A stretch of 36,788 nucleotides of DNA from Candidatus Uhrbacteria bacterium (lineage in GTDB: Bacteria; Patescibacteriota; Patescibacteriia; UBA9934). This document shows positions 4,467-35,061 of the stretch, piece after piece. The stretch's first letter is position 1, and each line of letters starts with the position of its first letter. The stretch is taken from contig JABHCP010000003.1 of the NCBI GenBank assembly GCA_018673485.1, forward strand, positions 1 through 36,788, in the 5' to 3' direction. The notes beneath the pieces were generated by a model. It did no database searches, had not been told where the DNA came from, and saw only the letters and a program-made list of their open reading frames with translations. The position numbers were made by a program, and so were the translations under genes.

Positions 4467-4490
4467 TACAATTGAATTATTAAATTTTCC

Positions 4491-4516
4491 AAATTCCGGA
4501 CGATCGTCCGGAATTT
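4491..4516. repeat. 26-bp perfect loopless palindrome, possible bidirectional terminator
   Basis: AAATTCCGGACGATCGTCCGGAATTT followed by GTTTT, between convergent ORFs. Confidence 0.85.
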
Positions 4517-4544
4517 GTTTTATCACAATGTTTTAAAAACAAAG

Positions 4545-6037: not shown

Positions 6038-6884
6038 CGCAGATAAAATCGATGTTTCCATACTCATAGTTCATACTTTTGAGGGTCGTTTATTGCGACA
6101 AACTTTGTCGAGTATCAATAGGGCTGCACCAAAAGTGAAATTTGAAGTTATTATTATTGATAACAATCCAGAAGCTGGATTTGCCCAAGTTCTCAAAGAT
6201 GAATTCCCGCACATTCACCACATCGGATTGGAGCGCAACGTGGGGTTCGGGGCAGCAATGAATGTTGGTTTGAAGGCAGCGAAGGGTCGTTACGTTTTGA
6301 TATTTAATCCAGACATTGTTGTTCAGCCTGAATCATTGGAGTCGATGCTTGAGTTCATGGATCAAAATCCAGACGTAGGAATGTGTGGACCAAAATTGAT
6401 GAATCCAGATGGTAGTTTACAGCACTCATGCTATAGATTCCCAACCATCATGATCCCAGCGTACAGAAGAACTCCACTGGGTAGGCTTCCGGTTGGGCGT
6501 AAGGCCGTGGATCACTATCTTATGGTTCACGAGGATCATGGGTCTCAGATGGACGTTGACTCACTCATCGGTGCCGCTTTGTTTACTCGTCGTTCAGCAC
6601 TGGATGAAGTTGGACATTTCGACGAGAGATTTTTCATGTATTACGAAGACAATGATTTATGTCGGCGGTTTTGGGAAAACGGACACAGGGTAGTATATTA
6701 TCCCGAAGCTCATATGATTCATTACCACCGTCGAGCAAGTGCAGATGGTAGTTTCATACGACAATTATTCAATAGATTCGCTTGGATCCAGATAGCAAGT
6801 GCGTTAAAGTTTTTTGCAAAGTATAGAAGCTCGGAGAATCCGAGGAGTAAGGTGCGGTCATCTGGGCTTAGCCATTTGGGCTAA
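6021..6884 (+). CDS. Glycosyltransferase family 2 (rhamnosyltransferase-like)
   Basis: SILIVHTFEGRLLRQTLSSI, NVGFGAAMNVG, FNPDIVVQPESL, DERFFMYYEDNDLCRRFWE; stop codon lies inside a REP repeat. Confidence 0.9.
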   Translation: MAMLNNADKIDVSILIVHTFEGRLLRQTLSSINRAAPKVKFEVIIIDNNPEAGFAQVLKDEFPHIHHIGLERNVGFGAAMNVGLKAAKGRYVLIFNPDIVVQPESLESMLEFMDQNPDVGMCGPKLMNPDGSLQHSCYRFPTIMIPAYRRTPLGRLPVGRKAVDHYLMVHEDHGSQMDVDSLIGAALFTRRSALDEVGHFDERFFMYYEDNDLCRRFWENGHRVVYYPEAHMIHYHRRASADGSFIRQLFNRFAWIQIASALKFFAKYRSSENPRSKVRSSGLSHLG

Positions 6885-6915
6885 GCCCAGATGGCTAAGC
6901 CCACCAAGCTTAGCC
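6862..6915. repeat. REP-like palindrome pair upstream of the RAYT
   Basis: CTGGGCTTAGCC-atttg-GGCTAAGCCCAG plus GGCTAAGC-ccaccaa-GCTTAGCC. Confidence 0.9.
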
Positions 6916-7032
6916 ATGATTATTTTGTACGCACAGCCCATATTGACAATTGTTCAGTTTGTATAGTGTATAATTTAAGTATCCTCTCCTTATTGCTAGG
7001 AGAATTTTTACTTAAATAATATAAAGAAAATT

Positions 7033-7644
7033 ATGCGAAGAGAACAGTTCGCGAACGGCAATTATTATCATATCTATAATCGAGGAGTTGATAAGAGATG
7101 CACATTTCAAGATCAGTTTGATTATGAAGAATTTATAGAAGCTCTCAAATCTTCTCAATATAAAGATGGTGTTGCATATGTCGATATTAATTATTATTGT
7201 CTTATGGATAATCATTTTCATCTAGTTTTAAGACAAGGAGTAGACAGGGGTGTCTCGGATTTTATGCATAAGATTGGCACAAAATACACTGAATACTTTA
7301 ATCAAAAATATAAAAGAACAGGATGTCTATTCGAAGGACCCTATAGAGCGAAGCCCTTACTAGATGACGCTCATTTTTTGCACATTTCAAGATATGTACA
7401 TTTGAATCCTTTAAAATATCATTTTAACGATTGGAAGTTGAAAGGTGTGCGGAATATAAAGAAGGCTCTTGATTTTTTAAAAAAATATCAGTGGTCTAGT
7501 TATTCATATATTTTCGGCAAGGAAAGTTTTATTAGTACAGGACTAATAGCGGATGAATTTAAGACATCAGCTGAGTATGATAGGTTCCTCATTGATTGGA
7601 TTAGATATGGATCCCCAATAAGATTTAATCAAATATTTTCATAA
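7033..7644 (+). CDS. REP-associated tyrosine transposase (RAYT, Y1/IS200-like)
   Basis: NGNYYHIYNRGVDKR, YCLMDNHFHLVLRQ (HUH motif HFH), GCLFEGPYRAKPLLDDAHFLHISRYVHLNPLK. Confidence 0.92.
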   Translation: MRREQFANGNYYHIYNRGVDKRCTFQDQFDYEEFIEALKSSQYKDGVAYVDINYYCLMDNHFHLVLRQGVDRGVSDFMHKIGTKYTEYFNQKYKRTGCLFEGPYRAKPLLDDAHFLHISRYVHLNPLKYHFNDWKLKGVRNIKKALDFLKKYQWSSYSYIFGKESFISTGLIADEFKTSAEYDRFLIDWIRYGSPIRFNQIFS

Positions 7645-7651
7645 TAGGTAC

Positions 7652-7707
7652 ATTTGGGCTTAGCCCAAATGGCTAAGCCTTAGAGGCCAAGCCCACCGGG
7701 CTTAGCC
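7652..7707. repeat. REP-like palindrome pair downstream of the RAYT
   Basis: ATTTGGGCTTAGCCCAAATGGCTAAGCC and GGCCAAGCCCaccGGGCTTAGCC. Confidence 0.9.
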
Positions 7708-12041: not shown

Positions 12042-12812
12042 ATGCGGGAGATAGTAACTGAATTAGTGCATTTAGGATTTTCAGAAAAAGAGGCCAGGGT
12101 TTACTTAGCTGCACTTGAGGTTGGAGTTTCAAGTGCACAGCAGATTGGTGAGAAGGCAGGAAACAATCGAGCGACCACTTATTCTGTTTTGAAGAGTTTG
12201 ATAAAAAAGGGATTGATCACATTGGTTAGTATCGATGGCTCGCAGAGCTTTCGTGCCGAGGCACCAGGCTCGATTATTAGATTGCTTGATCTGCAGCAAA
12301 AAGAGTTGGAAAAAAGAAAGCACAGAGCCCATCAAACAATTGAGCGCTTACAAGTCTTTCATAATACCGATGGCAGCAAACCAAGGATTCGCTACTTTGA
12401 GCGCGTTACAGGACTGCGAACCATGCAAGCTGAGTACGAGATGCTCGACGAGGACATTATTCAAATAGTGGGGCTCGATACACTTAGGCAGCTTTATGAT
12501 CCAGCTAATGATCAAGAGCACGCTAGGGAGCTAAAGCGTAAGGATCGTAAAGTAAAGACAATCATCGCAACGTCCCAAGACGTTTCACATTTAGATGAGT
12601 TGGATAATTTTGAATATGTCGTTGTTGACCCTGAGGTTTTGAACATAAAAGGGGAGATGACTGTGTGCGGGGACAGGGTTGTGATGTTTTCTTATTCCTC
12701 GACCATAATAGCGGTTGAGGTGCAGTCAAAGGAGATTGCGCAGACTGCAAGGGTGACGCTGGAGTTGGCGTGGAATGAGGCGGTTAGGCTTTCAAGGATA
12801 GGGCAAGAGTAA
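12042..12812 (+). CDS. TrmB-family HTH transcriptional regulator
   Basis: LVHLGFSEKEARVYLAALEVGVSSAQQIGEKAGNNRATTYSVLKSLIKKGLI, typical TrmB wHTH. Confidence 0.88.
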   Translation: MREIVTELVHLGFSEKEARVYLAALEVGVSSAQQIGEKAGNNRATTYSVLKSLIKKGLITLVSIDGSQSFRAEAPGSIIRLLDLQQKELEKRKHRAHQTIERLQVFHNTDGSKPRIRYFERVTGLRTMQAEYEMLDEDIIQIVGLDTLRQLYDPANDQEHARELKRKDRKVKTIIATSQDVSHLDELDNFEYVVVDPEVLNIKGEMTVCGDRVVMFSYSSTIIAVEVQSKEIAQTARVTLELAWNEAVRLSRIGQE

Positions 12813-12845
12813 TACACCTGGGGTGTTTCACCCCCAGACCCCTGA

Positions 12846-12877
12846 CCCGATTTCTTTGTTGGCTCAAAGAAACCGGG
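12846..12877. repeat. Intergenic hairpin
   Basis: CCCGATTTCTTTG-ttggct-CAAAGAAACCGGG, 13-bp arms with one mismatch (G:U in RNA). Confidence 0.55.
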
Positions 12878-13181
12878 GAAAGAAAGAGCCCTTTTCAGAG
12901 TGGTCCCACGGCCGCAAAGAATGCCGCAGCCTGCAGCCAATTTTTCATTTGTATATTCTATGTGCTCTTGGTTGGTGCCGGATCACAAGGCCCGACGCCG
13001 TCATATAACGTTGAGTAACAGCACGTACTCAAGATTGGATAGTAAAAATTGGCGGGGGACCTGCGGTTAGATTTAAAAAAAATAAAACACCAGTCATACC
13101 CCCCTTTTTCGTCATCCAGAGCGAGCGGAGCGCCTTGCCTGCCGGCAGGCAGGAGTCGAAGGATCTATTAAAGCTGATAAC

Positions 13182-13214
13182 AAAACACCACCGAGTTGAT
13201 CGGTGGTGTTTTTT
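13182..13214 (+). terminator. Rho-independent terminator
   Basis: AAAACACCACCGA-gttga-TCGGTGGTGTTTTTT. Confidence 0.8.
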
Positions 13215-13308
13215 GCACTATGCACAAATTGCTTTGTGCGCACTGCGTGTCGGTAGGGCTCAGCGTTGAATGCTGGGCCCTACCTGAGTAAGTAGGAGGG
13301 GACGTGGC

Positions 13309-13950
13309 CTAGGCCGAGGCCTCGGCGAAGTTGTCGTCGTTGTTGGCCATGGCCTGCAGGCAAGCCTGGCGCTTGCACGGCGGCATGCTCCAGGTGGGGT
13401 ACCGATTCCACTGCCGGCCCAGGCGGTTGCGCTCTCCGCCCTGGCGCGCACGGAGGATCTCCTTGCGCTCAGCCTCGGTGTAGACGTGACCCGAGTCACT
13501 GCTGCGGTAGGCGTGGACGGGGATCTGGATTTTGAGGGACGGCGTGATGAGCTCGAGTTCCGGGCGCTCTTCGACCCCCATGGGGACCCCCATGTCCTCG
13601 TCGTCGTAGAGGTCGCCGTAGCTGTCGTTCTGCTCCTCGTTGCCCTCGTCTGCGAACAGCGAGTCGAGGAACATACCCTCGTCGCTGCCGTAGAAGCCGG
13701 ACATCTCGACGACCCGGTCTTCGAAGCTCGCGGCGTACTCGTCGCCGTCGTCGAAGTCGCAGTCCATGTCGGGGCAGAAGGCGCCGACGATGGCTACGCC
13801 ATCCTCGTTGGCGACGAACATGCCGTCCTTGCGGGTCGGGGTGGTCTTGCTGTCCTTGACGAACAGTTCGAGCTCCCGGTTGCGCAACTTCGCGATCTCG
13901 TGCTGGCGCTTCCGCTCTGCCACGATGTCCATGAACATTGTCTGTGCCAT
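13309..13950 (-). CDS. GC-rich orphan protein, acidic centre and basic C-terminus
   Basis: MAQTMFMDIVAERKRQHEIAKLRNRELELFVKD...; start chosen at the ATG preceded by CCCGAGGAGATTCGGAT (SD GAGGAG). One 60-nt line (13381-13440) hand-counts to 43/60 GC. Confidence 0.75.
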   Translation of the reverse strand: MAQTMFMDIVAERKRQHEIAKLRNRELELFVKDSKTTPTRKDGMFVANEDGVAIVGAFCPDMDCDFDDGDEYAASFEDRVVEMSGFYGSDEGMFLDSLFADEGNEEQNDSYGDLYDDEDMGVPMGVEERPELELITPSLKIQIPVHAYRSSDSGHVYTEAERKEILRARQGGERNRLGRQWNRYPTWSMPPCKRQACLQAMANNDDNFAEASA

Positions 13951-14236
13951 ATCCGAATCTCCTCGGGTTGGCGTTGGTGGAAAGGGTGCTCCGGGATGGA
14001 GCTTTGCTTGAAATGTGTGGTTGCCCACAACAAACTGGAGGTAATGTGGTGCTCTGCCTAGGCAGAACATGTGGAGCAGTGACTTCCGAAGAAATATGCT
14101 CCGAGGAACCTCTGGCGTGTACTAGGAGTTAGCCGAGGCCAAGTCTTAGAACTTGAGGTTCCAATCCCCCTGAATAGTTGTTGATTTCAGAAGAAATTCA
14201 TCAACCTCCAGATTGTTGTGAAAAACGTGGCAGACG

Positions 14237-14261
14237 TCAGAACCCAGACGTCAGAACCCAG
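14237..14261. repeat. Left arm of a 25-bp exact inverted repeat (partner 15542-15566)
   Basis: TCAGAACCCAGACGTCAGAACCCAG; reverse complement found at 15542-15566. Confidence 0.9.
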
Positions 14262-14395
14262 TCAAAAATCTTGACTGACGTCTGAAGTCTGACCTCTGTA
14301 GTCTGTTACAGGCCACTCAGAGCTCGCAACCTTTGACTTTAAGCTTTAAACTTTTACCTTTAAGCTTTCCAATTCCTGTTACATTCTCTGCGTGG

Positions 14396-14448
14396 CCCAC
14401 ATGCAAACGATCGGAGTAATCTCGACGATCATATTGTTTGCATGTGGG
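14396..14448. repeat. 13-bp perfect inverted repeat downstream of the 14467 ORF
   Basis: CCCACATGCAAAC (14396-14408) / GTTTGCATGTGGG (14436-14448); no T-run. Confidence 0.85.
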
Positions 14449-14466
14449 ACGTTACGTACGTGGGTC

Positions 14467-15201
14467 CTAGTTGGGCTGCTGGGCGATCTCGCCGAGCCTG
14501 GCTGTGAGGCCACCCGTGGCTTGCGCTACCTGTCGGCCAGCCCGCGGGCGCCAGTTCAGGTCCTCAGCCTTTCCGCCGGCCTTGATGGTCAGCGGTACCG
14601 CGTACTTCTTGGTGATGCTGGTCAGGGTGCGTCGGGGGATGGCACCCATAGCGACGAGCTTGTCACCGACCTCAGCGTAGCTGCGCCGGGCGCCGCGGCT
14701 GGTGCTCTTGGCAATGTGGTACAGAACGCGGCTAGCCGCGACCGTATCGCTCGACAGCCGGATTTCTCCGGAAGCCTTGTCGAGCTCGTAGCGGTACGGG
14801 CACTGGCCGTCGGACTTCCAGCCTTCGCTGGTCCGGTAGCGCCGGTAGAGCCGAGCCTCGTACGCAGCGTCGAGCACAGCACGCGCGGCCTGACTCTGCT
14901 TGTACAGGAACACGGCCACATCGTACGCCCCCTTTTCGGCGAGCGCAGCCTTGTTGTTCGCGAGCATCCAGCGAAGCTGGATCTGCTCGACGGCCGCCCG
15001 CGCGACTTCGATGATCTCGATCGCCTCTTGCGCGATCGCGTCGTCGTCGCTGGTGAGGCGCGCGATGCTGATCATCTTGGCGCGCAACATCCCCTCGGCC
15101 TCGGACAGCGGGAACTCCTTGGCCTTGTTCTGGCCACGGAAGATGTACAGGCCGGGACCCGTGTTCCGACGTTCTTGGTTCTGGGTGGTCTTTTCAGCCA
15201 T
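14467..15201 (-). CDS. GC-rich orphan protein of unknown function (accessory cassette)
   Basis: MAEKTTQNQERRNTGPGLYIFRGQNKAKEF...; start at ATG preceded by GGAGGCCGTC (SD GGAGG); own consensus promoter. Confidence 0.75.
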   Translation of the reverse strand: MAEKTTQNQERRNTGPGLYIFRGQNKAKEFPLSEAEGMLRAKMISIARLTSDDDAIAQEAIEIIEVARAAVEQIQLRWMLANNKAALAEKGAYDVAVFLYKQSQAARAVLDAAYEARLYRRYRTSEGWKSDGQCPYRYELDKASGEIRLSSDTVAASRVLYHIAKSTSRGARRSYAEVGDKLVAMGAIPRRTLTSITKKYAVPLTIKAGGKAEDLNWRPRAGRQVAQATGGLTARLGEIAQQPN

Positions 15202-15218
15202 GACGGCCTCCATGTGTG

Positions 15219-15249
15219 ACCCGACCCTTTTGGGGTCATAGGGTCGGGT
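15219..15249 (-). promoter_or_regulatory. 5'-leader hairpin adjacent to the SD of the 14467-15201 ORF
   Basis: ACCCGACCCT/AGGGTCGGGT 10-bp stem shortly upstream of GGAGG. Confidence 0.6.
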
Positions 15250-15340
15250 TGTGAACGTGTGCCCAGTTGGACTTCATCGTAAAAAGAATTGCATCGAAAT
15301 CGCACTTTTTTAGGCAGTGTTTGCCAAATGCGAACGTTGA

Positions 15341-15369
15341 AATATAACATAAAATGGGGGTTTTGTCAA
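15341..15369 (-). promoter_or_regulatory. Sigma70 promoter of the 14467 cassette
   Basis: Minus strand TTGACA-AAACCCCCATTTTATGT(17)-TATATT with TGn extended -10. Confidence 0.85.
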
Positions 15370-15459
15370 GGCCAGAGGCCCTTTTTGAGGCCAACATTAG
15401 TAAAGTAATTTGTAAAGCGATAGGTTGAATAGAAGAAAATATAATAATGGCAACCCCCT

Positions 15460-15530
15460 GTCGTCCCCCTTGCCCCTTCGACTTCGCTCAGGGCACCCTG
15501 AGTTATATCGATAGGTGGGAAGGGGGACAT
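15460..15530. repeat. Intergenic palindromic repeat (CTTCGACTTCGCTCAGGG type)
   Basis: CCCCTTCGACTTCGCTCAGGGCACCCTGAG; related core at 19650-19690. Confidence 0.6.
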
Positions 15531-15541
15531 GAGAGTTTAGT

Positions 15542-15566
15542 CTGGGTTCTGACGTCTGGGTTCTGA
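15542..15566. repeat. Right arm of the 25-bp exact inverted repeat
   Basis: CTGGGTTCTGACGTCTGGGTTCTGA, exact reverse complement of 14237-14261. Confidence 0.9.
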
Positions 15567-15594
15567 ATTCTGCCTTTTGTGCTACAATACCCCC

Positions 15595-16521
15595 ATGAAT
15601 CAGCCGTTTTCCACAATTATTGGGCATAGTGCGCAGTGTGAGTATCTGCAAAATATTTTGAAGTCCGGAAATATTGCCCATGGATTTTGTTTCTCAGGAT
15701 CAAAAGGCTTGGGTAAAGCCACGATCGCCAAAGAATTCGCTGCTAATTTATTGGGTCTTGAGGCAGAAAAATTGCAGACTTCACCAAATGTGACGATTGT
15801 AAGAAGTGAAGAAGGCAAAGGAATTAGCGTTGAGCAGATTCGGGACTTAAAGCAAACGTTGTCGCTTTCTACTTTTGGTGGTGGCTGGAAGGTTGCTATC
15901 ATCGATGGCGCACAGACTATGAAGGCTTCTGCGCAAAATGCATTATTGAAGACTTTGGAGGAGCCTACTCCTAAAACAATAATCATTTTAGTTTCTCACA
16001 ATTCAAATGCGCTGCTTGAGACCATAAAATCACGCGTTGCAACAATTGAATTTAAATTAGTCGCCGTTGATAGTATTAAAGAATCATTAAAGCAAAAGTT
16101 TGATTTGGATTCTGAGAACGCTGAGTTGATCGGTCAGCTAAGTATGGGGCGACCTGGTTTTGCTTTTGCGTGTTCGGATGAGGAGAGTTATAAGGAACAG
16201 GAGGGTTTGGCTCAAGACGCTTTGCAGTTTTTGCAAGACCCGCTGTATGCGCGCATGAAAAAAATCGAAGAGCTTACAAAGCTTAAAGAAGACCGTCAAC
16301 AGACGATCCAAAACATGGTAGAATTAATGAGGATGTGGCTGCATGAGAGTTTGTTGGGCTCTTTGGAATTAGAGTGCTCCAAGCAGGCTAAGGAACTTTC
16401 TAAAACACATTCACAAGAGCAAATAAAAAATGCATTGCAAGCTTTGCAAAAGTGCGAATCAGCGTTAGCTCGTAACGTTGGACCCGCACTAGCCCTTCAA
16501 GTATTCGCATCAAGTTTTTAA
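15595..16521 (+). CDS. holB: DNA polymerase III delta'-like clamp loader subunit
   Basis: IIGHSAQCEYLQNILKSGNIAHGFCFSGSKGLGKATIAKEFA, QNALLKTLEEPTPKTIIILVSHNSNALLETIKSR. Confidence 0.88.
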   Translation: MNQPFSTIIGHSAQCEYLQNILKSGNIAHGFCFSGSKGLGKATIAKEFAANLLGLEAEKLQTSPNVTIVRSEEGKGISVEQIRDLKQTLSLSTFGGGWKVAIIDGAQTMKASAQNALLKTLEEPTPKTIIILVSHNSNALLETIKSRVATIEFKLVAVDSIKESLKQKFDLDSENAELIGQLSMGRPGFAFACSDEESYKEQEGLAQDALQFLQDPLYARMKKIEELTKLKEDRQQTIQNMVELMRMWLHESLLGSLELECSKQAKELSKTHSQEQIKNALQALQKCESALARNVGPALALQVFASSF

Positions 16522-16532
16522 AAATAAAATCT

Positions 16533-17591
16533 ATGAAAAAATATATTTCCTTGAGCCTTTTGGTTCTTTCCTTGGTAATCGCCGGCGGCGGTTGCTTGTC
16601 ATCGAGTTCGAGCACTGCAACTACAGGTGGTGTTTGGCAAACAAAAGATTACGGTCAGAATTGGACACAGCTCGCGTCATTACCACAAGCAAGTGGTGTT
16701 GGTTCAATAGCGGGTGTTAACGTAACAGCAATCGAGATCGATCCGTCAGACCCAACTGTTTATTATTTAGGAACCGAGGGCAATGGAGTGTTTACTTCCT
16801 ATGACGCAGGAAGCACCTGGCAACGACCTGATGCAAGCGAACTCACAACCGGAACGATAATTGACATCGAAGTTCATCCAAGTGATGTTTGTACGATTTA
16901 TATTGCGTTTCCTGACACTGTACTGAAAACGTCAGATTGTATGCGAAGCGTTTATGATATTTATGAGGTTGATCAGTCGGATGAATATGTAACAACCTTT
17001 GACATTGACTGGTACAGTCCTAGCAATCTATGGCTTGGTAATGAGCAAGGTGCAGTTGTAAAGTCAGCCGACTCTGGTGCTACCTGGTCAACAGTTTACC
17101 GAGTAAATGATGATATTACAGATTTAGAAGTCAGCAAGGCAGATAGCAGAATTGTTTACGTAGCTACTGATCGTCGAGGATTTTACAGGTCAACTGATAG
17201 TGGTGCTAGTTGGGTGGAGTATGAAGATGACCTAAAAAAACAATTCAAGGATTCAGACGAGGTTTATAATTTTGCACAAACTGAAGATGGAACATCAGTT
17301 TTGATGAATACCGAATACGGACTTTTGATCTCAGTTGACATGGGAGAGACTTGGGAGGCATTGTCATTAATTACAGAAGAGGGTGAGGTGAGAATTTGGG
17401 ATGCGGCTTTTGCGCCTCACAATGCAAGTGATATTTATTACGCAACATCAAGCACTTTTTACTCATCAAGCACTGGTGGACAGTCATGGGTGACTGAGGA
17501 CTTACCATCGGGCAGAACTCCGTACATTGTGCGAGTAAATCCAGAAGATATGGATAGAGTTTGGGTGGGCTTTAGGGCGCTCGACAATTAG
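16533..17591 (+). CDS. Lipoprotein with BNR/sialidase-like beta-propeller repeats
   Basis: Signal peptide with AGGGC lipobox; repeated DYGQNW, YDAGSTW, DSGATW, DSGASW, DMGETW, TGGQSW motifs. Confidence 0.85.
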   Translation: MKKYISLSLLVLSLVIAGGGCLSSSSSTATTGGVWQTKDYGQNWTQLASLPQASGVGSIAGVNVTAIEIDPSDPTVYYLGTEGNGVFTSYDAGSTWQRPDASELTTGTIIDIEVHPSDVCTIYIAFPDTVLKTSDCMRSVYDIYEVDQSDEYVTTFDIDWYSPSNLWLGNEQGAVVKSADSGATWSTVYRVNDDITDLEVSKADSRIVYVATDRRGFYRSTDSGASWVEYEDDLKKQFKDSDEVYNFAQTEDGTSVLMNTEYGLLISVDMGETWEALSLITEEGEVRIWDAAFAPHNASDIYYATSSTFYSSSTGGQSWVTEDLPSGRTPYIVRVNPEDMDRVWVGFRALDN

Positions 17592-17618
17592 TTCAATATT
17601 GACTAAGATGCGATTTAT

Positions 17619-18149
17619 ATGAGTAGACAAGAACAATTTCAAAAAGTTATTGAGTTTTTTGAGGGAGAGCTTAAAACTATAAGAACAGGACGTGCAACAC
17701 CCGAGATAGTTGATGGTATTATGGTTGACGCTTATGACACAAAGCAGTCATTGAAGGCAGTGGCGAGCATTGCTACACCGGACGCAAAAACAATACAGAT
17801 CGAGCCATGGGACGGTGCTGTAGTCTCAGCAATTGAGAAAGCTTTGATAGAAGCGGATTTAGGAATGATGCCAAACGTGGACGGTAAAATTATTCGTCTT
17901 AACATGCCGATGATGACTGATGAGAACAGGCAGCAGATGGTTAAGAAGATTAAAGAAAAAGCAGAGGATTCCCGAGTAAAGATTCGTCGGATACGTGAAG
18001 ATGATAAAAAAAGCATTGAGGCACAAGACGGCATTGGAGACGATGACAAGCGACGCGAATTAGAAAACTTAGAAAGTGATGTTAAGGATAGTGTTTCAAA
18101 GATCGATGAGCTAGCACAGACAAAAGAGGATGAAGTAACGACTATATAG
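17619..18149 (+). CDS. frr: Ribosome recycling factor
   Basis: LKTIRTGRATPEIVDGI, DAKTIQIEPWD, LNMPMMTDENRQQMVKKIKEKAEDSRVKIRRIR. Confidence 0.95.
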   Translation: MSRQEQFQKVIEFFEGELKTIRTGRATPEIVDGIMVDAYDTKQSLKAVASIATPDAKTIQIEPWDGAVVSAIEKALIEADLGMMPNVDGKIIRLNMPMMTDENRQQMVKKIKEKAEDSRVKIRRIREDDKKSIEAQDGIGDDDKRRELENLESDVKDSVSKIDELAQTKEDEVTTI

Positions 18150-18153
18150 TTTT

Positions 18154-19539
18154 ATGGCAAAAAATGAACAAGGTACTATGGAAAAGATCGTGTCGCTTTG
18201 TAAGCGACGCGGCTTTGTCTTCCCATCATCAGAAATTTACGGTGGTTTTGCCGCAGTGTATGACTACGGCCCATTGGGAGTTGAGCTTTCAAATAATATC
18301 AAGAAAGCTTGGTGGAAGACTATGGTTCACGAACGTGAAGACGTAGTTGGGCTTGATAGCGCAATTTTCATGAGTCCAAAGGTTTGGGAGGCAAGCGGTC
18401 ACGTTAATGGCTTTTCTGATCCTTTAACTGAGTGTAAGAAATGTAATGTACGGCATCGTGTTGATCACATGCTTGAGTCAATCGACGTATTTGCTGACGA
18501 GAAGATGAGCGTGGAGGAGATTAGCGCGTTGTTTGAGGAAAATAAAGATAAGTTAAAGTGTCCAAAATGTGGCGCGCAGGAATTTACAGAGATTCGTAAC
18601 TTCAACTTACTTGTTCAGTCCAACCTCGGGAACTTCACAGGAGACTGGGCAGAAAATCCGGTTTATTTGCGTGGCGAGACTTGCCAAGGTATTTATGTGA
18701 ACTACAAGAATGTAGTGGACTCAATGCACATGAAGGTTCCGTTTGGTATTGCGCAGACCGGTAAGGCATTCCGAAATGAAATCACAGCTCGCCAGTTTAT
18801 TTTCCGCACACGTGAGTTTGAACAAATGGAGATGCAGTACTTTGTTCATCCAGATGATGCGATGAAGTTTTATGATGAGTGGAAGGAGCGTAGAATGCAG
18901 TTCTATGTCGACATTGGTATTAATGAGGAGAATTTGCAGTGGCATAAGCATGAGAACTTAGTGTTTTATGCTAAGGAAGCTTACGACATTGAATATAAGT
19001 ATCCGTTTGGTTGGAAGGAGCTCGAGGGTATTCATGCGCGAGGGGATTATGATCTTTCCCAACATTGCGAGCATTCAGGGCAAAAGTTGGAGTATGTTGA
19101 TCAGGTAAAGAACGAAAAGTACACACCGCACGTTGTTGAAACTTCAGCTGGTGTTGCTCGAACAATGTTGGCGGTTCTTGCTGACGCTTACACTGAGGAG
19201 GAGGTTGAGGGCGATACTCGAGTAGTGCTGAAGCTAAATACAAAGCTGGCACCGTTTAAGATTGCTGTGTTGCCACTGTCAAAAAAGGATGAGCTGGTTA
19301 CTCCAGCACGTGAGCTATTCAAGAAGCTGTCAAAAAAATATATAGTTGATTTTGATATCACTCAATCAATTGGGAAACGATATCGACGTCAGGATGAGGT
19401 AGGAACACCATATTGCATTACATTTGATTTTGATTCTTTGGAAGACAAGGCGGTCACGGTGCGTGATCGCGATACCATGAAGCAGGATCGCGTGACTATT
19501 GCTGAGCTGGAAGCGTATTTTGCAGAAAAGCTCGATTAA
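18154..19539 (+). CDS. glyS: Glycine--tRNA ligase (single-chain, class II)
   Basis: KRRGFVFPSSEIYGGFAAVYDYGPLGVELSNNIKKAWW, FRNEITARQFIFRTREFEQMEMQYFVHP, C-terminal anticodon-binding domain. Confidence 0.95.
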   Translation: MAKNEQGTMEKIVSLCKRRGFVFPSSEIYGGFAAVYDYGPLGVELSNNIKKAWWKTMVHEREDVVGLDSAIFMSPKVWEASGHVNGFSDPLTECKKCNVRHRVDHMLESIDVFADEKMSVEEISALFEENKDKLKCPKCGAQEFTEIRNFNLLVQSNLGNFTGDWAENPVYLRGETCQGIYVNYKNVVDSMHMKVPFGIAQTGKAFRNEITARQFIFRTREFEQMEMQYFVHPDDAMKFYDEWKERRMQFYVDIGINEENLQWHKHENLVFYAKEAYDIEYKYPFGWKELEGIHARGDYDLSQHCEHSGQKLEYVDQVKNEKYTPHVVETSAGVARTMLAVLADAYTEEEVEGDTRVVLKLNTKLAPFKIAVLPLSKKDELVTPARELFKKLSKKYIVDFDITQSIGKRYRRQDEVGTPYCITFDFDSLEDKAVTVRDRDTMKQDRVTIAELEAYFAEKLD

Positions 19540-24903: not shown

Positions 24904-25353
24904 CTACTGCGCGACGAGCCGGGGCTTGATGGTCTTGACGCGAGTCTCGACCTTGTCGGCGATGGCCTTGTGAGCTTCGTCGCCATTGGCCTCGAGCTCG
25001 GTCGCGAGCTCCTTCAGGCCCTGCGGCAGCTCGAGCCCCTTGGCTTCGAACCACCTCACCCACCGCGCCGCTACTTCGTAGCAGACCCGATAGGTGGGCC
25101 AGGCGGCCAGGACGATCTCATCGACCGGGCCGAGCCATGCGTCGATGAAGGAGATGATCGCACCGAACGCGGGGACTGCGTTCCCGGTTGCGATCGTCCA
25201 GTCGAGCAGGATGACGCAGGCGAGCAGTGCGGTGAGCGCCACGGCATGGACCGTCGTCAGCCAGCGCTTCGCCCACCGGTCCACCTTCACGAAGGTGTTG
25301 TGAACGAAGGCCGTGATGGCCTTGATTGCTAAGGCAGCGATGAGAGTATGCAT
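24904..25353 (-). CDS. GC-rich orphan membrane protein (accessory cassette)
   Basis: MHTLIAALAIKAITAFVHNTF...HAVALTALLACVILLDWTIATGNAVPAFGAIISF...; SD GGAG; own promoter and terminator. Confidence 0.75.
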   Translation of the reverse strand: MHTLIAALAIKAITAFVHNTFVKVDRWAKRWLTTVHAVALTALLACVILLDWTIATGNAVPAFGAIISFIDAWLGPVDEIVLAAWPTYRVCYEVAARWVRWFEAKGLELPQGLKELATELEANGDEAHKAIADKVETRVKTIKPRLVAQ

Positions 25354-25621: not shown

Positions 25622-25653
25622 ATCAATTACGGTCCGATCGGACCGTAATTGAT
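25622..25653. repeat. 32-bp perfect loopless palindrome
   Basis: ATCAATTACGGTCCGATCGGACCGTAATTGAT. Confidence 0.9.
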
Positions 25654-28032: not shown

Positions 28033-28052
28033 GTAGACAAATTCACCATAAA

Positions 28053-28080
28053 AATCCTGGAGTAATAACCAGGGTTTTTA
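28053..28080 (+). terminator. Terminator of the 27220 gene
   Basis: AATCCTGG-agtaata-ACCAGGGTTTTT. Confidence 0.7.
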
Positions 28081-28104
28081 TTTTAGAAAAAGAAGAACCC
28101 CCAC
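28060..28104. repeat. Direct repeat DR1 copy 1
   Basis: gagtaataaccagggtttttattttagaaaaagaagaacccccacg; near-copy at 29642-29689. Confidence 0.85.
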
Positions 28105-28181
28105 GAACCGTGAGTTGGACATGAGTGTCCTTCAGGGTTGTTGGGGGTTGAGGGAGGAGGGGTGGAGGAAGTTGTTGCGAC

Positions 28182-29402
28182 CTAGAACTGCAGGGTGCCG
28201 CCGATGACGCCGAGATCCATGAAGTAGATGGTCTCGCTGACACCGTCGACGTGGAGCATGTTCTCGAGTTCCAGCTGGAGGGCGTCGTCACTCACCGCAC
28301 TGGCACCTGAGGTGTCGACCCACACCGAGAAGGTGATGGTCTCGCCGGCCGGGATCTCGAGGTCTCCCACGAGGCTGACCATGGTGCCGTCGAGCATCGC
28401 CTGACCGGTCATGACCGGGTTGGTCGGATCGGTGCTCAGGTCGTATGCATCGAACTGGAGGATATCGTTCCAGTCGGTGCCAGCGTTGTCCGTGGAGTTG
28501 ATCTCCAGCCGCAGGTAGGTCACCACCATGTCGTCGCACTCATCATGCTCGGACGTGATGTTGACACGCAACACCTCGGTGTAACCCGGGATGCTGGCGC
28601 CAGACGGACTCGTGCTCGACAGGGTGCCGGTGAGCTCGTTGGTGACGTCGATGCGACCGTTGCCAACGGTCACTGCCTCGAAGGTGCAGGCGTTGCCGAC
28701 GTAGGCAGCCAGGGTAGGCACCACACCATCCTCGACGTAGTCCACGTTGTGGGCGATCCACTGCGTGTTCTGTGCCGTGGAGATGACGTCGATGGTCTGG
28801 ATGCCGAAGGCGAAGCTGGCGAACTCGAGCTCCTCGGCGGCCTCGGTGAGGTCGCAGACGAAGTTCATGGCTTCAGCATCGTCACCGCTGACCGTGAAGT
28901 CATCAGTGAAGTTGACCCAGCCGTGGCTGTCGAACTCCATGGGACCCATGATGACGCTGCGCAAGGTGACGTCGACCATTCTACAGTTGGTGAAGTAGTC
29001 GGCCGGGTTGACGCCTTCCTCCTCCAAGCTGCTGAACACGCCATCGCCATCGCTGTCGACGTAGCTCATCATGGTCACGTCTTGGATGGTGATGTCGTCG
29101 CCGGTGACGCTCTGGAACATCCAGGCGCCGAAGTTGATGTCATTCTGGCCGGGGATGATCTGGTAGTGCTCGGCAGCAGACCAGGCCGTGGTGAACTGCA
29201 TCTGCAGGGTCGCCTCGGTCTCGTCGGTGTCGCCGGTATCGCAGAGCTCGGGGAACTCGTCGCAGAAGTCGCCGAGGCCGTCGAACTCGCTCGGCAGGCT
29301 CGGGGTGTTATCCTCGACTTCCTGATCGAAGTCGTCGGAGATGTCCGTGCCACAGCCGATGAGGGCGAAGGCGAGGGTGAGAGGGAACAGGGTGGAACGC
29401 AT
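28182..29402 (-). CDS. GC-rich orphan lipoprotein (accessory cassette)
   Basis: Signal peptide and lipobox MRSTLFPLTLAFALIGCGTD; Asp-rich loop YVDSDGDGVFSSLEEEG; SD CTGGAG. Line 28801-28860 hand-counts to 41/60 GC versus 22/60 in native line 27781-27840. Confidence 0.85.
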   Translation of the reverse strand: MRSTLFPLTLAFALIGCGTDISDDFDQEVEDNTPSLPSEFDGLGDFCDEFPELCDTGDTDETEATLQMQFTTAWSAAEHYQIIPGQNDINFGAWMFQSVTGDDITIQDVTMMSYVDSDGDGVFSSLEEEGVNPADYFTNCRMVDVTLRSVIMGPMEFDSHGWVNFTDDFTVSGDDAEAMNFVCDLTEAAEELEFASFAFGIQTIDVISTAQNTQWIAHNVDYVEDGVVPTLAAYVGNACTFEAVTVGNGRIDVTNELTGTLSSTSPSGASIPGYTEVLRVNITSEHDECDDMVVTYLRLEINSTDNAGTDWNDILQFDAYDLSTDPTNPVMTGQAMLDGTMVSLVGDLEIPAGETITFSVWVDTSGASAVSDDALQLELENMLHVDGVSETIYFMDLGVIGGTLQF

Positions 29403-29437
29403 GTTGGTCTCCAGGGGGGTGAGGGTACAGGGTGGGC

Positions 29438-29486
29438 ATAGAAAAATCCCGTAAAACTATCTACTTTCTTTAAGTACTCAGCTGTA
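29438..29486 (-). promoter_or_regulatory. Terminator-like hairpin in the 5' leader of the lipoprotein gene (candidate attenuator)
   Basis: Minus strand ATCCCGTA...TACGGGATTTTTC with nested TACTT-aaaga-AAGTA. Confidence 0.55.
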
Positions 29487-29519
29487 CGGGATATTCCTTT
29501 ACCTCCTGATTGACCAAGC

Positions 29520-29548
29520 AATATAACATAAAATAGGCCTTTTGTCAA
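29520..29548 (-). promoter_or_regulatory. Sigma70 promoter of the lipoprotein cassette
   Basis: Minus strand TTGACA-AAAGGCCTATTTTATGT(17)-TATATT. Confidence 0.85.
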
Positions 29549-29585
29549 TAGAAAAGCGTGTTTTTTGGGCTAAAATTAGGTGTAA

Positions 29586-29642
29586 AACAAAAGCCACTTT
29601 AGTTTATCAAGCTGTGGACAGAGGTTGAACCTTCGTCCACAG
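29586..29642. repeat. Direct repeat DR2 copy 1 (palindromic)
   Basis: aacaaaagccactttagtttatcaagctgtggacagaggttgaaccttcgtccacag; 49/57 identical to copy 2 by hand alignment. Confidence 0.9.
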
Positions 29643-29689
29643 AGTAATAACCAGGGTTTTTTTATTTAAGAAAAAGAAGAACCCCTACG
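29642..29689. repeat. Direct repeat DR1 copy 2
   Basis: gagtaataaccagggtttttttatttaagaaaaagaagaacccctacg; lacks the CCTGG left terminator arm present at copy 1. Confidence 0.85.
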
Positions 29690-29722
29690 CAAGCGCAGGG
29701 GCTCGGGCAGGGGTAAGGTGCG

Positions 29723-30100
29723 CTAGGGGGGATCCATGTTGTTGGCATGGAAGCATTCTTCGATCAGCCATCGCTCCGATAGACATTTGGCCGAACGATC
29801 GTTGCCCGACTGGTCGTAGCGGATCAGCATCCACTTGAGCGAGGCCTCCTTCCACTTGATTTCATCCATGTAGAGTTCCATCATGCGGAAGCCTCTACTT
29901 ACAGAGAGGGCTACGACCTTATCCACGAATGTGTAGATCTCATCTGCGTCGGCTGTTTTAGGAAGATCAGCCATTTTCAGATGTAGAATGTGAGTAGGGC
30001 GTTTGCTTTCTCGACTCCAGAAACTGCCCTCCCAACGGCCTTCAGGGAGGTCTTGTCGCTCATCGAGCAATTTGACATCGAGCTTCTCGATTGCACTCAT
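29723..30100 (-). CDS. Orphan small protein of unknown function (accessory cassette)
   Basis: MSAIEKLDVKLLDERQDLPEGRWEGSFWSRESKRPTHILHLKMADLPKTADADEIYTFVDKV...; AAGGAAACCAAC before ATG; own promoter and terminator. Confidence 0.78.
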   Translation of the reverse strand: MSAIEKLDVKLLDERQDLPEGRWEGSFWSRESKRPTHILHLKMADLPKTADADEIYTFVDKVVALSVSRGFRMMELYMDEIKWKEASLKWMLIRYDQSGNDRSAKCLSERWLIEECFHANNMDPP

Positions 30101-30149
30101 GTTGGTTTCCTTGGTTGAAGAGTGTTGCGAGTGTTCTTTTGAACCAAAA

Positions 30150-30178
30150 AATATAACAAAAAAAAGCCTTTTTGTCAA
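30150..30178 (-). promoter_or_regulatory. Sigma70 promoter of the 29723 cassette
   Basis: Minus strand TTGACA-AAAAGGCTTTTTTTTGT(17)-TATATT. Confidence 0.85.
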
Positions 30179-30192
30179 TAGTATTAGCCAAT

Positions 30193-30249
30193 AACAAAAG
30201 CCACCCTAGTTCATCAAGCTGTGGATAGAGGTTCAACCTCTATCCACAG
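30193..30249. repeat. Direct repeat DR2 copy 2 with perfect 15-bp-arm palindrome
   Basis: CTGTGGATAGAGGTT-c-AACCTCTATCCACAG at 30219-30249. Confidence 0.9.
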
Positions 30250-30318
30250 TTGTGTACATCTAAAACAAAAGCCACCTTGGATTATTCAAAATGGCTATTT
30301 GTTTATGTTTGAACTTGA

Positions 30319-31860
30319 TTATGAGTATGATCGGCGGCTTGATCGGCGGCGTTGTCCGGTGCTATTGCTGGACTTTTGGCCTCGTCCGTATCCACCTGTT
30401 GATCTTCGCCCCGAAGTTCCTGATTGATTATCAGAATTTTCTGCCCTTCTTCGCGAAGTCGCATTTCCACCAGATCGGCGGGTTGGCTTTCGTCCTGAGC
30501 TTGAAGTCTTTCGATTTCCCCTGTCTCTACGTGGATCATACTGCTCAGGAGAATTCTCCATGAACTGTCGATTCTTAGATCGACCGCTTGGTCTTGATTT
30601 ACCACCTGATCTTGATCCGCCGCTTTGTCTTGATTGAGATGGCGGTCGTTGTCGTCTTGATCCACTTCCACGCTTTTTATTAGAACGTGATTTTGAATAT
30701 GATAGGCTTGCTACCTGTTCAGGAGTAAGCGTTCCAGGACCTTCCAGTACCTCGATATCAGCTCCAATCAGTCGTTCGATTGCTTTCATGTCTCGGCGCT
30801 GCTCGGGTTGAACAAATGATACGGCACAACCTGTGTGTCCAGCGCGGCCAGTTCGTCCAATGCGGTGAATGTAATCCTCATCTCTTTCCGGAATATCGTA
30901 GTTAACAACAAGTGCAATTTCTTTTACATCAATTCCACGTGCTGCCACGTCAGTAGCTACCAAGGTTTTACTCTTTCCACTCTTAAAGTTTGCAAGCGCA
31001 TATCGACGTTGATTTAAGCTTCGGTTTGAGTGAAGCTCCTCAGTTCTGCGCCCGCTCTTGCTTAGCACGCGTGCCATTTTTTGTGTACCTCGTTTTGTTC
31101 GGCAAAAGACTAGAACCGGTCCGTCTTTATACTCTTCCAAAATACATTCAAGAAGTGCAAACTTTTTTGAGGCTTCAACATAGAAAACACCCTGTTGAAT
31201 CTGGCTAGCGCTAGTTACGGTCGGGATAACCTCAACTTTAACTGGATTTTTCATGTAACCGTGACCAATCTTTGCAACCTCTGGCGCCATTGTGGCAGAA
31301 AATAGCATTGTCTGTCGATCACTTGGCACAGACTTTAGAACTTGATTGATTTGTGGCGCGAATCCCATGTCGAGCATTCGGTCAGCCTCATCGAGCACAA
31401 GCATGCAAACACGATCGAGTTTTACTGTTTTACGTTCGATGTGATCGATCAGTCGTCCCGGAGTCGCAACTACAATATGTGGTCGTGCTCTTAGAGATCG
31501 AATCTGTTGACCAATATTTGCTCCACCAATAAGTAATGCAGTCTTAATTCGCAAAGCCCTTCCGGCTTTGTCGATTTCCTCACGAACCTGAAAGGCAAGT
31601 TCTCGTGTTGGGACAACAATTAGTCCAGTTCCACCGGATGCCATAATATTCTGGATCATTGGCAGGGCAAAGGCAAATGTTTTACCAGTACCTGTTTGCG
31701 CAATACCAATAACATCCTGGCCATCAAGGGCTAGGGGAATTGCCTTTGCTTGAATTGGTGTCGGCTCTGTAAAAGATAGCCGTTCCAGGGCCTTGAGTAA
31801 GTCGTCAGACAACCCAAGATCCGTGAAGCGCACAATGCGCTTCGATGTTTCCTGTTTCAT
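30319..31860 (-). CDS. DEAD-box RNA helicase with R/S/G-rich C-terminal tail
   Basis: Q-motif FTEPTPIQ, AQTGTGKTFAFALP, VLDEADRMLDMGF, SATMAPEV, HRIGRTGRAG; RGSGSRRQRPPSQSRQSGG... tail. Confidence 0.95.
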   Translation of the reverse strand: MKQETSKRIVRFTDLGLSDDLLKALERLSFTEPTPIQAKAIPLALDGQDVIGIAQTGTGKTFAFALPMIQNIMASGGTGLIVVPTRELAFQVREEIDKAGRALRIKTALLIGGANIGQQIRSLRARPHIVVATPGRLIDHIERKTVKLDRVCMLVLDEADRMLDMGFAPQINQVLKSVPSDRQTMLFSATMAPEVAKIGHGYMKNPVKVEVIPTVTSASQIQQGVFYVEASKKFALLECILEEYKDGPVLVFCRTKRGTQKMARVLSKSGRRTEELHSNRSLNQRRYALANFKSGKSKTLVATDVAARGIDVKEIALVVNYDIPERDEDYIHRIGRTGRAGHTGCAVSFVQPEQRRDMKAIERLIGADIEVLEGPGTLTPEQVASLSYSKSRSNKKRGSGSRRQRPPSQSRQSGGSRSGGKSRPSGRSKNRQFMENSPEQYDPRRDRGNRKTSSSGRKPTRRSGGNATSRRRAENSDNQSGTSGRRSTGGYGRGQKSSNSTGQRRRSSRRSYS

Positions 31861-32041: not shown

Positions 32042-32073
32042 TAATAGTTGACAAAACGGTCATTTTGCGCTAT
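32042..32073 (+). repeat. 32-bp promoter repeat, copy 1
   Basis: taatagttgacaaaacggtcattttgcgctat, identical to 32626-32657. Confidence 0.95.
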
Positions 32074-32134: not shown

Positions 32135-32341
32135 ATGACCAAGCCTCGCCCCACACCTTCTTTCTCTGGAATCCTGACGCCTGACGCTGCACAGCGCATC
32201 GGCGCGCCTGAGGTCGCCAACAAGCGGGTCAGGTTCAGTAAGACCGATGACGGCAAGTTCGCCCAGGATGTCTACTTCAACGATGAGCTGATCTGTGAGA
32301 GCTACGTCAGCCTCACCCCCGACGGTATCATCGAGGACTGA
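32135..32341 (+). CDS. GC-rich orphan 68-aa protein (accessory cassette)
   Basis: MTKPRPTPSFSGILTPDAAQRIGAPEVANKRVRFSKTDDGKFAQDVYFNDELICESYVSLTPDGIIED; GGGAG SD; own promoter and terminator. Confidence 0.75.
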   Translation: MTKPRPTPSFSGILTPDAAQRIGAPEVANKRVRFSKTDDGKFAQDVYFNDELICESYVSLTPDGIIED

Positions 32342-32484: not shown

Positions 32485-32532
32485 AAATTAATTACACTTA
32501 TGAGTCGATCGACTCATAAGTGTAATTAATTT
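32485..32532. repeat. 48-bp perfect loopless palindrome
   Basis: AAATTAATTACACTTATGAGTCGATCGACTCATAAGTGTAATTAATTT. Confidence 0.95.
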
Positions 32533-32625: not shown

Positions 32626-32657
32626 TAATAGTTGACAAAACGGTCATTTTGCGCTAT
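32626..32657 (+). repeat. 32-bp promoter repeat, copy 2
   Basis: Identical to 32042-32073; contains TTGACA-17-TATTAT (32632-32660) upstream of the 32681 gene. Confidence 0.95.
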
Positions 32658-32680: not shown

Positions 32681-33835
32681 ATGAAAAAACTTATTGCATT
32701 GTTAGTTATTAGTCTTTTCGCTCTTCCTGCACCTTCTGTGCAGGCTCTCGTGATGTTGTCTGATCCAGACGAAACTCAGCTTATTGAGAACGTCATGAAT
32801 GCGGAGTCATACGATTTTAATGTCGATATTGACTTTGAAACTAGTAACGATGATATTGATAATCCCATCACCCTGCACGTCGATTATGATGCTGCTTGGA
32901 CTGGGGACGAAGCTGGACTATTTGATCTTGGAGTAAATTTTAGCAATCAGTACGGTGATTATAGCGCGTACGATGCGTCACTTATTAGCACACCAGATGA
33001 TAGTTATGTTTCAGATGATGGAGAGCAGTGGTACTTTTTAGGTGAGAGCCTAATAAGTGATAGCCCAACTCAACAGGAGATTGGAGAAGCCATCACTATG
33101 ACGGAAGGTTTTCTAACAGAATTAATTGATAACGATGTTATCACATACGCTCCCGAGATGGCTGACTTTATTAACGGGCAGTTTACAGTTCGTTATGCCT
33201 ATGAGCTTGATGGAGATAAGTTGACAGATTATCTAATCTTGAAGGGGATGGTGCTTGACGCTGATCAAGAAAAAACACGAGAGTATCTTACGAACGATAT
33301 TTCTGTAAGCGGAAACGTGTGGATCGACACAGTTAATACGTTGCCAGTAATGATCACCCTCAATGTGGATACAGGATCAAGCGATGCGTCATATACAACA
33401 TTAAGATTCTCAGTTTTGTTTAATAGCTTTAACGAGCAGGTAATAGTAGAAGTTCCTGAAAACGTTACTGATATTAACGAGTACGACTCAACTGAAATTG
33501 AGGACTTTGTCATGTCGAGCTTTGAAAGCGCTGTTACAAATATGGATACAGACGGAGACGGACTTTCAAACGATCAAGAAATGTTAACTTGGAATACAGA
33601 TGTTCTGAGCTCTGACACTGACGGTGACGGCTATGACGATTACACTGAAGTAGTTAACGGCTACAACCCAAACGGATCTGGAATATTGGATACCGATGGT
33701 GACGGACTTACAGACTACGCCGAAATGACAATTCATTGGTCTGATCCATATGACATCGATTCTGACAACGACGGATACAACGACGGAGTCGAAATCGCAA
33801 ACGGCTACGATCCAAACGGACTAGGTCGTTGGTAA
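32681..33835 (+). CDS. Secreted protein with C-terminal calcium-binding (thrombospondin type 3-like) repeats
   Basis: Signal peptide MKKLIALLVISLFALPAPSVQA; DTDGDGLSNDQE, DTDGDGYDDYTEVVNGYNPN, DTDGDGLTDYAEM, DSDNDGYNDGVEIANGYDPN. Confidence 0.9.
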   Translation: MKKLIALLVISLFALPAPSVQALVMLSDPDETQLIENVMNAESYDFNVDIDFETSNDDIDNPITLHVDYDAAWTGDEAGLFDLGVNFSNQYGDYSAYDASLISTPDDSYVSDDGEQWYFLGESLISDSPTQQEIGEAITMTEGFLTELIDNDVITYAPEMADFINGQFTVRYAYELDGDKLTDYLILKGMVLDADQEKTREYLTNDISVSGNVWIDTVNTLPVMITLNVDTGSSDASYTTLRFSVLFNSFNEQVIVEVPENVTDINEYDSTEIEDFVMSSFESAVTNMDTDGDGLSNDQEMLTWNTDVLSSDTDGDGYDDYTEVVNGYNPNGSGILDTDGDGLTDYAEMTIHWSDPYDIDSDNDGYNDGVEIANGYDPNGLGRW

Positions 33836-34277: not shown

Positions 34278-34679
34278 TTATTCACATCTTCCAGTGTCTT
34301 GACTGTATTCTAAAGGCGACGGGCATATGCAGGCTACACCTGAAATTGTACCTCCACTATCTGTGCAGAGCCCGAGAACAATTGACGTCCAAAATGAATA
34401 ATACCCATGTGGTAGTCCGATAGAGGCTTGAAATGCATCTCCACCTGGTCCACCATATGTTGTCTGACAAAATCCAGTTGCTGAATCATACATTAATTCT
34501 TGCGTTTGCTCACCTTCGAGGTGACATTCACATTCTCCATTAACAAATTCACCGGTACTTAGTTCACAGTTATATTTCACAGGTCCATCTAAAGTTGAGT
34601 TTTGTATTGGCGGCATCGCGAAGAATACAATGACACTTCCAATAATTAATCCAACGATAACAAAAAGTATATTTTTCAT
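34278..34679 (-). CDS. Small Cys-rich membrane-anchored protein
   Basis: MKNILFVIVGLIIGSVIVFFAM anchor; multiple Cys (YNCELSTGEFVNGECECHLEG...CICPSPLEYSQDTGRCE). Confidence 0.7.
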   Translation of the reverse strand: MKNILFVIVGLIIGSVIVFFAMPPIQNSTLDGPVKYNCELSTGEFVNGECECHLEGEQTQELMYDSATGFCQTTYGGPGGDAFQASIGLPHGYYSFWTSIVLGLCTDSGGTISGVACICPSPLEYSQDTGRCE

Positions 34680-34691
34680 ATAATTCAATTA

Positions 34692-34731
34692 TATCAAAAA
34701 ACCACCACATTGTGTGCGGGGGTTTTTTAGG
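34692..34731. repeat. 40-bp terminator repeat, copy 1
   Basis: tatcaaaaaaccaccacattgtgtgcgggggttttttagg; one mismatch to 35022-35061. Confidence 0.9.
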
Positions 34732-34748: not shown

Positions 34749-35009
34749 CTAGTCAAAGATAATGAAGCTGATTTCAGTTATGGCTTCGATTTTATGGTAT
34801 GTATTTGCTGGGATTTCAAAATAAGTAGGGGATTGTACTATCGAGTCTAGGTTTTTGATCGTGACCTTTGCTTCCCCAGTAATTAGATATACTTTTTCAT
34901 AAGGATTATTTTCATTATCACCAGATATACTCCCCTTGTTTCGATAATAGAGTTTGAATCCATCTGCTTGATATTTTTGTCCGTCACTGTCTTCCCTGAT
35001 CAATTTCAT
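34749..35009 (-). CDS. Cupin-like small protein
   Basis: MKLIREDSDGQKYQADGFKLYYRNKGS...YEKVYLITGEAKVTIKN...YFEIPANTYHKIEAITEISFIIFD, beta-rich cupin pattern. Confidence 0.65.
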   Translation of the reverse strand: MKLIREDSDGQKYQADGFKLYYRNKGSISGDNENNPYEKVYLITGEAKVTIKNLDSIVQSPTYFEIPANTYHKIEAITEISFIIFD

Positions 35010-35021
35010 ATAACTATATTG

Positions 35022-35061
35022 TATCAAAAAACCACCACATTGTGTGCGGTGGTTTTTTAGG
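35022..35061. repeat. 40-bp terminator repeat, copy 2
   Basis: tatcaaaaaaccaccacattgtgtgcggtggttttttagg, with perfect ACCACC/GGTGGT stem. Confidence 0.9.

Follow-up and report, generated by a model that had tools for sequence, protein, structure and literature searches.

Two single-gene units stand in tandem on the minus strand of a Candidatus Uhrbacteria chromosome, between gene A and a DEAD-box helicase gene, and have homologous regulatory ends while the ORFs they enclose are unrelated (Table 1). They were analysed in a stretch of 36,788 nucleotides, called here the window. The best reading is that single-gene accessory units spread via duplication or recombination at common regulatory ends, and that their coding parts diverge fast or get replaced. 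The lineage has a larger set of such GC-rich genes with strong promoters and fast turnover, to which both units belong and whose members seem to be gained and lost one by one.

The genome (~1 Mb) is one MAG, which a search with MreB assigns to Candidatus Uhrbacteria. Its sample consisted of stretches totalling ~476 kb out of 1,028 kb, some of them selected through promoter matches, and genes were called with a home-made caller using two codon tables. The comparison genome, UBA12070 (G001), belongs to the same genus; order-wide searches covered 73 genomes.

Table 1. Features of the two units, of further repeat-flanked ORFs and of dispersed palindromes (window coordinates unless a locus is named).
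Feature	Position	Strand	Description
Zero-loop palindrome sites	window 4490-4517, 25622-25653, 32485-32532; L016 14133-14172; L018 6273-6312; L022 12490-12531		
Gene A	27220-28032		
Gene A bidirectional terminator-like hairpin AAAAATCCTGGAGTAATAACCAGGGTTTTT	28050-28079	.	sequence; minus-strand fold; loop and right arm repeated at 29642
DR1 copy 1	28060-28105	.	gene A terminator (right part), then T-tract and unit 1 terminator edge
Unit 1 ORF	28182-29402	-	406 aa, predicted lipoprotein (lipobox LIGC), GC3 0.87
Unit 1 leader	29403-29513	-	strong hairpin then U's, attenuator-like; fold z -4.4
Unit 1 promoter TTGACAAAAGGCCTATTTTATGTTATATT	29520-29548	-	sequence match, predicted
Third common stretch	29513-29551 / 30143-30181		spans the promoters; 85%
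DR2 copy 1	29586-29642	.	terminator-like half and palindrome 29612-29642
DR1 copy 2	29642-29689	.	gene A terminator (half), then T-tract and unit 2 terminator edge
Unit 2 ORF	29723-30100	-	125 aa, orphan, GC3 0.61
Unit 2 promoter TTGACAAAAAGGCTTTTTTTTGTTATATT	30150-30178	-	sequence match, predicted
DR2 copy 2	30193-30249	.	terminator-like half and perfect palindrome 30219-30249
DEAD-box helicase gene	30319-31860		
Promoter copy before orphan ORF	32042-32073	+	32 nt identical to 32626-32657
Orphan ORF	32135-32341	+	68 aa, GC3 0.75, absent from G001
Promoter of resident gene 32681-33835 (second copy)	32626-32657	+	sequence; single in G001
Third repeat pair	34674-34731 / 35004-35061		58 nt, intergenic, 91%
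ORF flanked by third pair	34749-35009		ordinary composition

The tandem pair with common ends reported in the initial annotation was found again at the same positions. Read along the minus strand, the helicase terminator gives way to a palindrome, a terminator-like half, a promoter, a leader, an ORF and a terminator; the series from palindrome to terminator is repeated and is followed by the gene A terminator. Both units carry a predicted sigma-70-type promoter of their own, close to consensus, and a terminator hairpin with a T-tract. The DR1 copies agree at 92% over 48 columns, and at 48 of 54 when extended to 28110 and 29695, while the DR2 copies (57 nt) are 86% alike and a third common stretch spans the promoters. 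The claim that the ends are homologous and the ORFs unrelated was borne out by local alignment of ends and bodies against 200 shuffles. The 5' ends, from palindrome to promoter, scored 56 (best shuffle at most 15) and the 3' ends 39.5 (at most 16), while the ORF bodies reached 13.5, under the best shuffle (17). The end scores exceed the shuffles and the body score does not, so homology is confined to the ends.

The units adjoin at 29642, as originally described, where the CCACAG palindrome end of copy 1 leads directly into AGTAATAACCAGGGTTTTT of copy 2. DR1 copy 1 contains the loop and right arm of the intact gene A terminator, while DR1 copy 2 has the loop and right arm only, without the left arm, fused to the palindrome end. 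Because of this truncated terminator the units look like a tandem duplication with breakpoints in the terminator loop and at the palindrome end.

The unit 1 product, a lipoprotein predicted from MRSTLFPLTLAFALIGC, may have a role at the cell surface. Its homologues occur in 40 of the 73 genomes of the order, the best full-length match (44%) being in another genus; its C-terminal part is related to a region of ~1300-1400 aa proteins in the order, and the alignment of its relatives is too divergent for a contig scan. For the unit 2 protein, neither the 73 genomes of the order nor GTDB contigs gave a relative. No BLASTP match was obtained between the two proteins, and their genes have no DNA similarity either. 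The payloads tested gave no convincing match in Pfam, PHROGs, NCBIfam, PDB or plasmids, and structure predictions from single sequences had mean pLDDT values of 52 and 38 and were set aside. The unit 1 leader carries, 5' of the start codon, an attenuator-like hairpin CCCGUA..UACGGGA followed by UUUUU, unlike the unit 2 leader, whose fold has no strong hairpin with U's.

Comparison with G001, the only collinear genome in the family, took up, at the level of species, the presence/absence check that had been proposed for strains: this sister species, collinear with the window from 5.0 to 33.8 kb, lacks both. In the collinear stretch 17 of 18 called ordinary genes are present in G001, with 44-94% identity, and so are three of seven GC-rich genes (46%; 31%; 40% over only 45 aa); the absent ones are 24904, units 1 and 2, and 32135. 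The interval from the PIF1-like gene to the helicase measures ~0.6 kb in G001, where it holds one other small ORF, versus 3.2 kb here, and no scaffold remnant was detected there in this two-species comparison. Four other genomes with the PIF1-like gene gave no helicase match in the stretches around it. Gene A, of ordinary composition, is likewise missing from G001, so the region could be simply labile. At the three sites where both species have a class gene the payload is a diverged homologue (one weak) and not a swapped gene; exchange was thus not observed directly.

The orphan ORF 32135-32341, lying between two copies of a resident promoter, is a cleaner second case. In G001 the resident gene is preceded by just one promoter of this type, and the upstream DNA aligns up to the insertion. 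The third repeat pair has different ORFs around it and encloses an ORF of ordinary composition, the arrangement therefore not being limited to GC-rich ORFs.

It is reasonably probable that the pair represents accessory single-gene units whose ends were copied by duplication or unequal exchange and whose payload was replaced by recombination between the common ends. The stretch would have undergone tandem duplication or unequal exchange, with breakpoints at the palindrome end and in the terminator loop, making the regulatory ends of the units copies of each other. One copy may then have received or kept a different payload through recombination between the common ends, for instance from another allele of the site in a related strain, and no dedicated recombinase would be needed. 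We infer the duplication step, the dispensability of a dedicated recombinase and the payload replacement, the latter because no strain with a different payload in the same scaffold was found. Of the duplicated scaffold with a swapped payload put forward in the initial annotation, the common scaffold and the different payloads stand, while the swap itself was not seen directly. The ORFs might alternatively be paralogues past recognition, produced by plain tandem duplication of one whole unit, after which one of the coding parts diverged very rapidly and altered in length, while promoter and terminators were kept alike by selection or gene conversion. This is unlikely for units 1 and 2, which differ in length (406 vs 125 aa) and GC3 (0.87 vs 0.61) and are similar in neither DNA nor protein; the full-length homologue of unit 1 in another genus marks an old family, not derived here from unit 2, which has no relative in the order. 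In other tandem pairs of the genome, too, the scaffold is more alike than the ORFs, which range from recognisable paralogues to unrelated ORFs, and these pairs count for the main reading. Plain duplication has on its side three further sets of neighbouring genes that are plainly paralogous (33% over 183 aa; 38% and 47% over shorter pieces) with scaffolds 69-90% alike, and the class genes common with G001, which are only 31-46% identical. Several of the tandem pairs, as recognisable paralogues, fit plain duplication and divergence. In the case of units 1 and 2, which differ in length, composition and relatives, recombination with different payloads is favoured with moderate confidence.

A dedicated gene-capture or cassette-exchange system, moving single ORFs between repeated ends, perhaps as circles, would accommodate both the recurrence of single ORFs flanked by directly repeated regulatory DNA and the presence or absence of single units between two species. 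We consider it quite improbable: the repeats differ case by case in sequence and length (32 to 154 columns), and the genome has one tyrosine recombinase, which is Xer-like, and attC-like pairs at shuffle level. The cassette exchange originally proposed retains the absence of both units from the sister species and the commoner direct-repeat flanks round class genes and loses the integron analogy. That unrelated genes merely carry the usual promoter of the lineage and similar terminators by coincidence, or that the contig is chimeric or an assembly artefact, is hardly credible. The promoter core is indeed common in the order, also before ordinary genes, and the data come from one MAG, but DR1 and the DR2 terminator half are alike in both units and nowhere else in 476 kb above control, and the flanks on either side are collinear with G001.

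The same search bears on the view of DR1 and DR2 as general ends of mobile cassettes, which was not supported. In the 476 kb of the genome no further DR1 or non-palindromic DR2-half copy exceeded reversed-pattern controls, with the exception of a partial copy of the latter at 30264, inside the helicase terminator. When the DR2-promoter end was searched against the 73 genomes of the order, the palindrome turned up in this genome only and elsewhere essentially the promoter core. DR1/DR2 were thus rejected as dispersed mobile ends, since the dispersed part is the palindrome only, which recurs in contigs C3 (twice), C4 and C13 and, more weakly, in C12. The palindrome was also dismissed as an obligatory unit border, long palindromes being found in the flanks of 10/55 GC-rich genes versus 28/299 ordinary ones, which is not decisive.

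Fourteen short GC-rich ORFs of the class have a mean GC3 of 0.76 versus 0.40 (sd 0.04) for 21 ordinary window genes, and five GC-rich ORFs in 62 kb of G001 range from 0.86 to 0.95. The class accounts for 55 of the 354 genes called in the sampled stretches, a frequency biased upward by the partial choice of stretches via promoter matches. The two codon tables of the caller sharpen the GC3 split; when plain ORFs of 150 aa or more are taken instead, a second GC3 hump persists, less clean than with the caller. The GC-rich stretch exceeds the ORF by ~40 nt on the upstream side and ~60 nt on the downstream side, beyond which GC drops toward host level. A promoter-like site precedes 29/54 class genes (54%) versus 24/212 ordinary genes (11%; P 2e-10, or 2e-8 with the window excluded), and direct repeats flank 11/55 (20%) versus 8/186 (4%; P 6e-4, or 0.010 with the window excluded). 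The sequence TTGACAAAAnnnnnTTTTTGTGCTATATT, with at most 3 mismatches, has 25 sites in the genome (reversed control 0), mostly 5' of a short GC-rich ORF and in some cases before ordinary genes or no clear ORF. The promoter core occurs generally across the order, before ordinary genes too, so that the promoter alone is no sign of mobility. One class gene has GC3 0.84 and 0.86 in two species although its copies are 46% identical, which is not predicted by recent transfer and amelioration.

Integron cassettes are expressed from a common Pc promoter, and attC sites have the paired ends RYYYAAC ... GTTRRRY. The cassettes are generally promoterless and attC-bounded, and resemble the present units in having one gene per unit, a tandem order and common ends with different payloads (PMC8946536). 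The likeness to them drawn in the initial annotation fails on the promoter carried by each unit, the lack of any attC-like pair at the three unit borders (26 such pairs in the sample versus 29-36 in shuffles) and the nature of the recombinase. The search for PF00589 gave a single match in the genome and no integron integrase of IntI type; this protein scored 143 bits versus an integron integrase cut-off of 265, and 93 versus 435, and passed only recomb_XerA_Arch. A missed integrase is unlikely yet possible, as the genome is 99% complete in 21 contigs. An integron was rejected on these grounds.

Phage morons and accessory loci are discussed in PMC7067206. Like morons, the units each comprise one accessory gene that has a predicted promoter and terminator to itself, deviates in base composition (GC3 0.87 and 0.61 vs 0.40) and is inserted between resident genes. 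Unlike morons they are chromosomal, their payload is GC-richer than the host, resident regulatory ends are duplicated and many such genes occur in a small genome. No prophage was seen in the window, whose neighbouring genes are ordinary chromosomal ones collinear with G001, and the payloads have no PHROG match. Tandem gene duplication accounts for repeated ends with a half terminator at the junction, and other pairs of the genome are paralogues, whereas the ORFs enclosed here are unrelated in sequence, length and composition and are not copies of one another. Homology-facilitated illegitimate recombination would insert foreign DNA through one homologous anchor combined with one microhomology join and can leave resident DNA duplicated; no donor was identified here. 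It is mentioned, for natural transformation, in PMC6382021.

That Uhrbacteria have a non-integron gene-capture platform, a mechanism by which individual GC-rich ORFs are inserted or swapped behind resident promoters and terminators that have been duplicated, appears rather doubtful. If true, such a platform would maintain a compositionally separate accessory gene pool in a ~1 Mb genome. Patescibacteria genomes are very small, yet 55 of the 354 genes called in the sampled stretches stand apart as a set with high GC3, often a strong promoter, and fast turnover. Gain, loss or re-filling of single-gene units at common regulatory ends, if it takes place, would offer a testable route by which reduced genomes go on acquiring new accessory proteins. 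A literature search found no description of such a gene class in Patescibacteria, which is weak evidence of novelty.

As in REP/RAYT systems, palindromes are dispersed between genes of the window, which also has an ORF (7033-7644) resembling RAYT (REP-associated tyrosine transposase) that lies between GGCTTAGCC-type palindromes (6859-7707). This RAYT-like ORF scores 37 bits, under the NCBIfam cut-off of 80, and the ORF at the same place of G001 is 52% identical. The DR2 palindrome differs from those beside this ORF, and genes are not known to be carried as REP cargo. Palindromes related to that of DR2 are found in L015 (5851-5879, 5974-6002 and 2184-2216); TGTGGATAACAGTTTAACTGTTATCCACA contains two inverted TTATCCACA words, which resemble DnaA boxes. 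Long zero-loop perfect palindromes, with a core such as GGTCCGATCGGACC and arms CACATAA..TTATGTG, are dispersed in intergenic DNA of the genome (Table 1); none of this kind occurred in two shuffled controls.

In L023 (G000:C20) positions 12200-18300 hold a run of ~10 short ORFs, GC-rich and all on the same strand, that follows one strong promoter and has the look of an operon-like array made up of small accessory genes. Its spacers are repeated and structured, with a TGCGGCAC..GTGCCGCA hairpin, then CGACCAAAGnGTTTAA .. TTGAACCCTTCGGTCG. The leader motif GAGAGAGCCCTAACTTCTGGGTAAAAGAAG, without a match in Rfam, is identical behind two distant strong promoters, in L011 and L036 (C20 12303 and C13 42554), with pseudoknot-like pairing (CCC/GGG, CTTC/GAAG), and a diverged version is found in the window 5' of 24904-25353.
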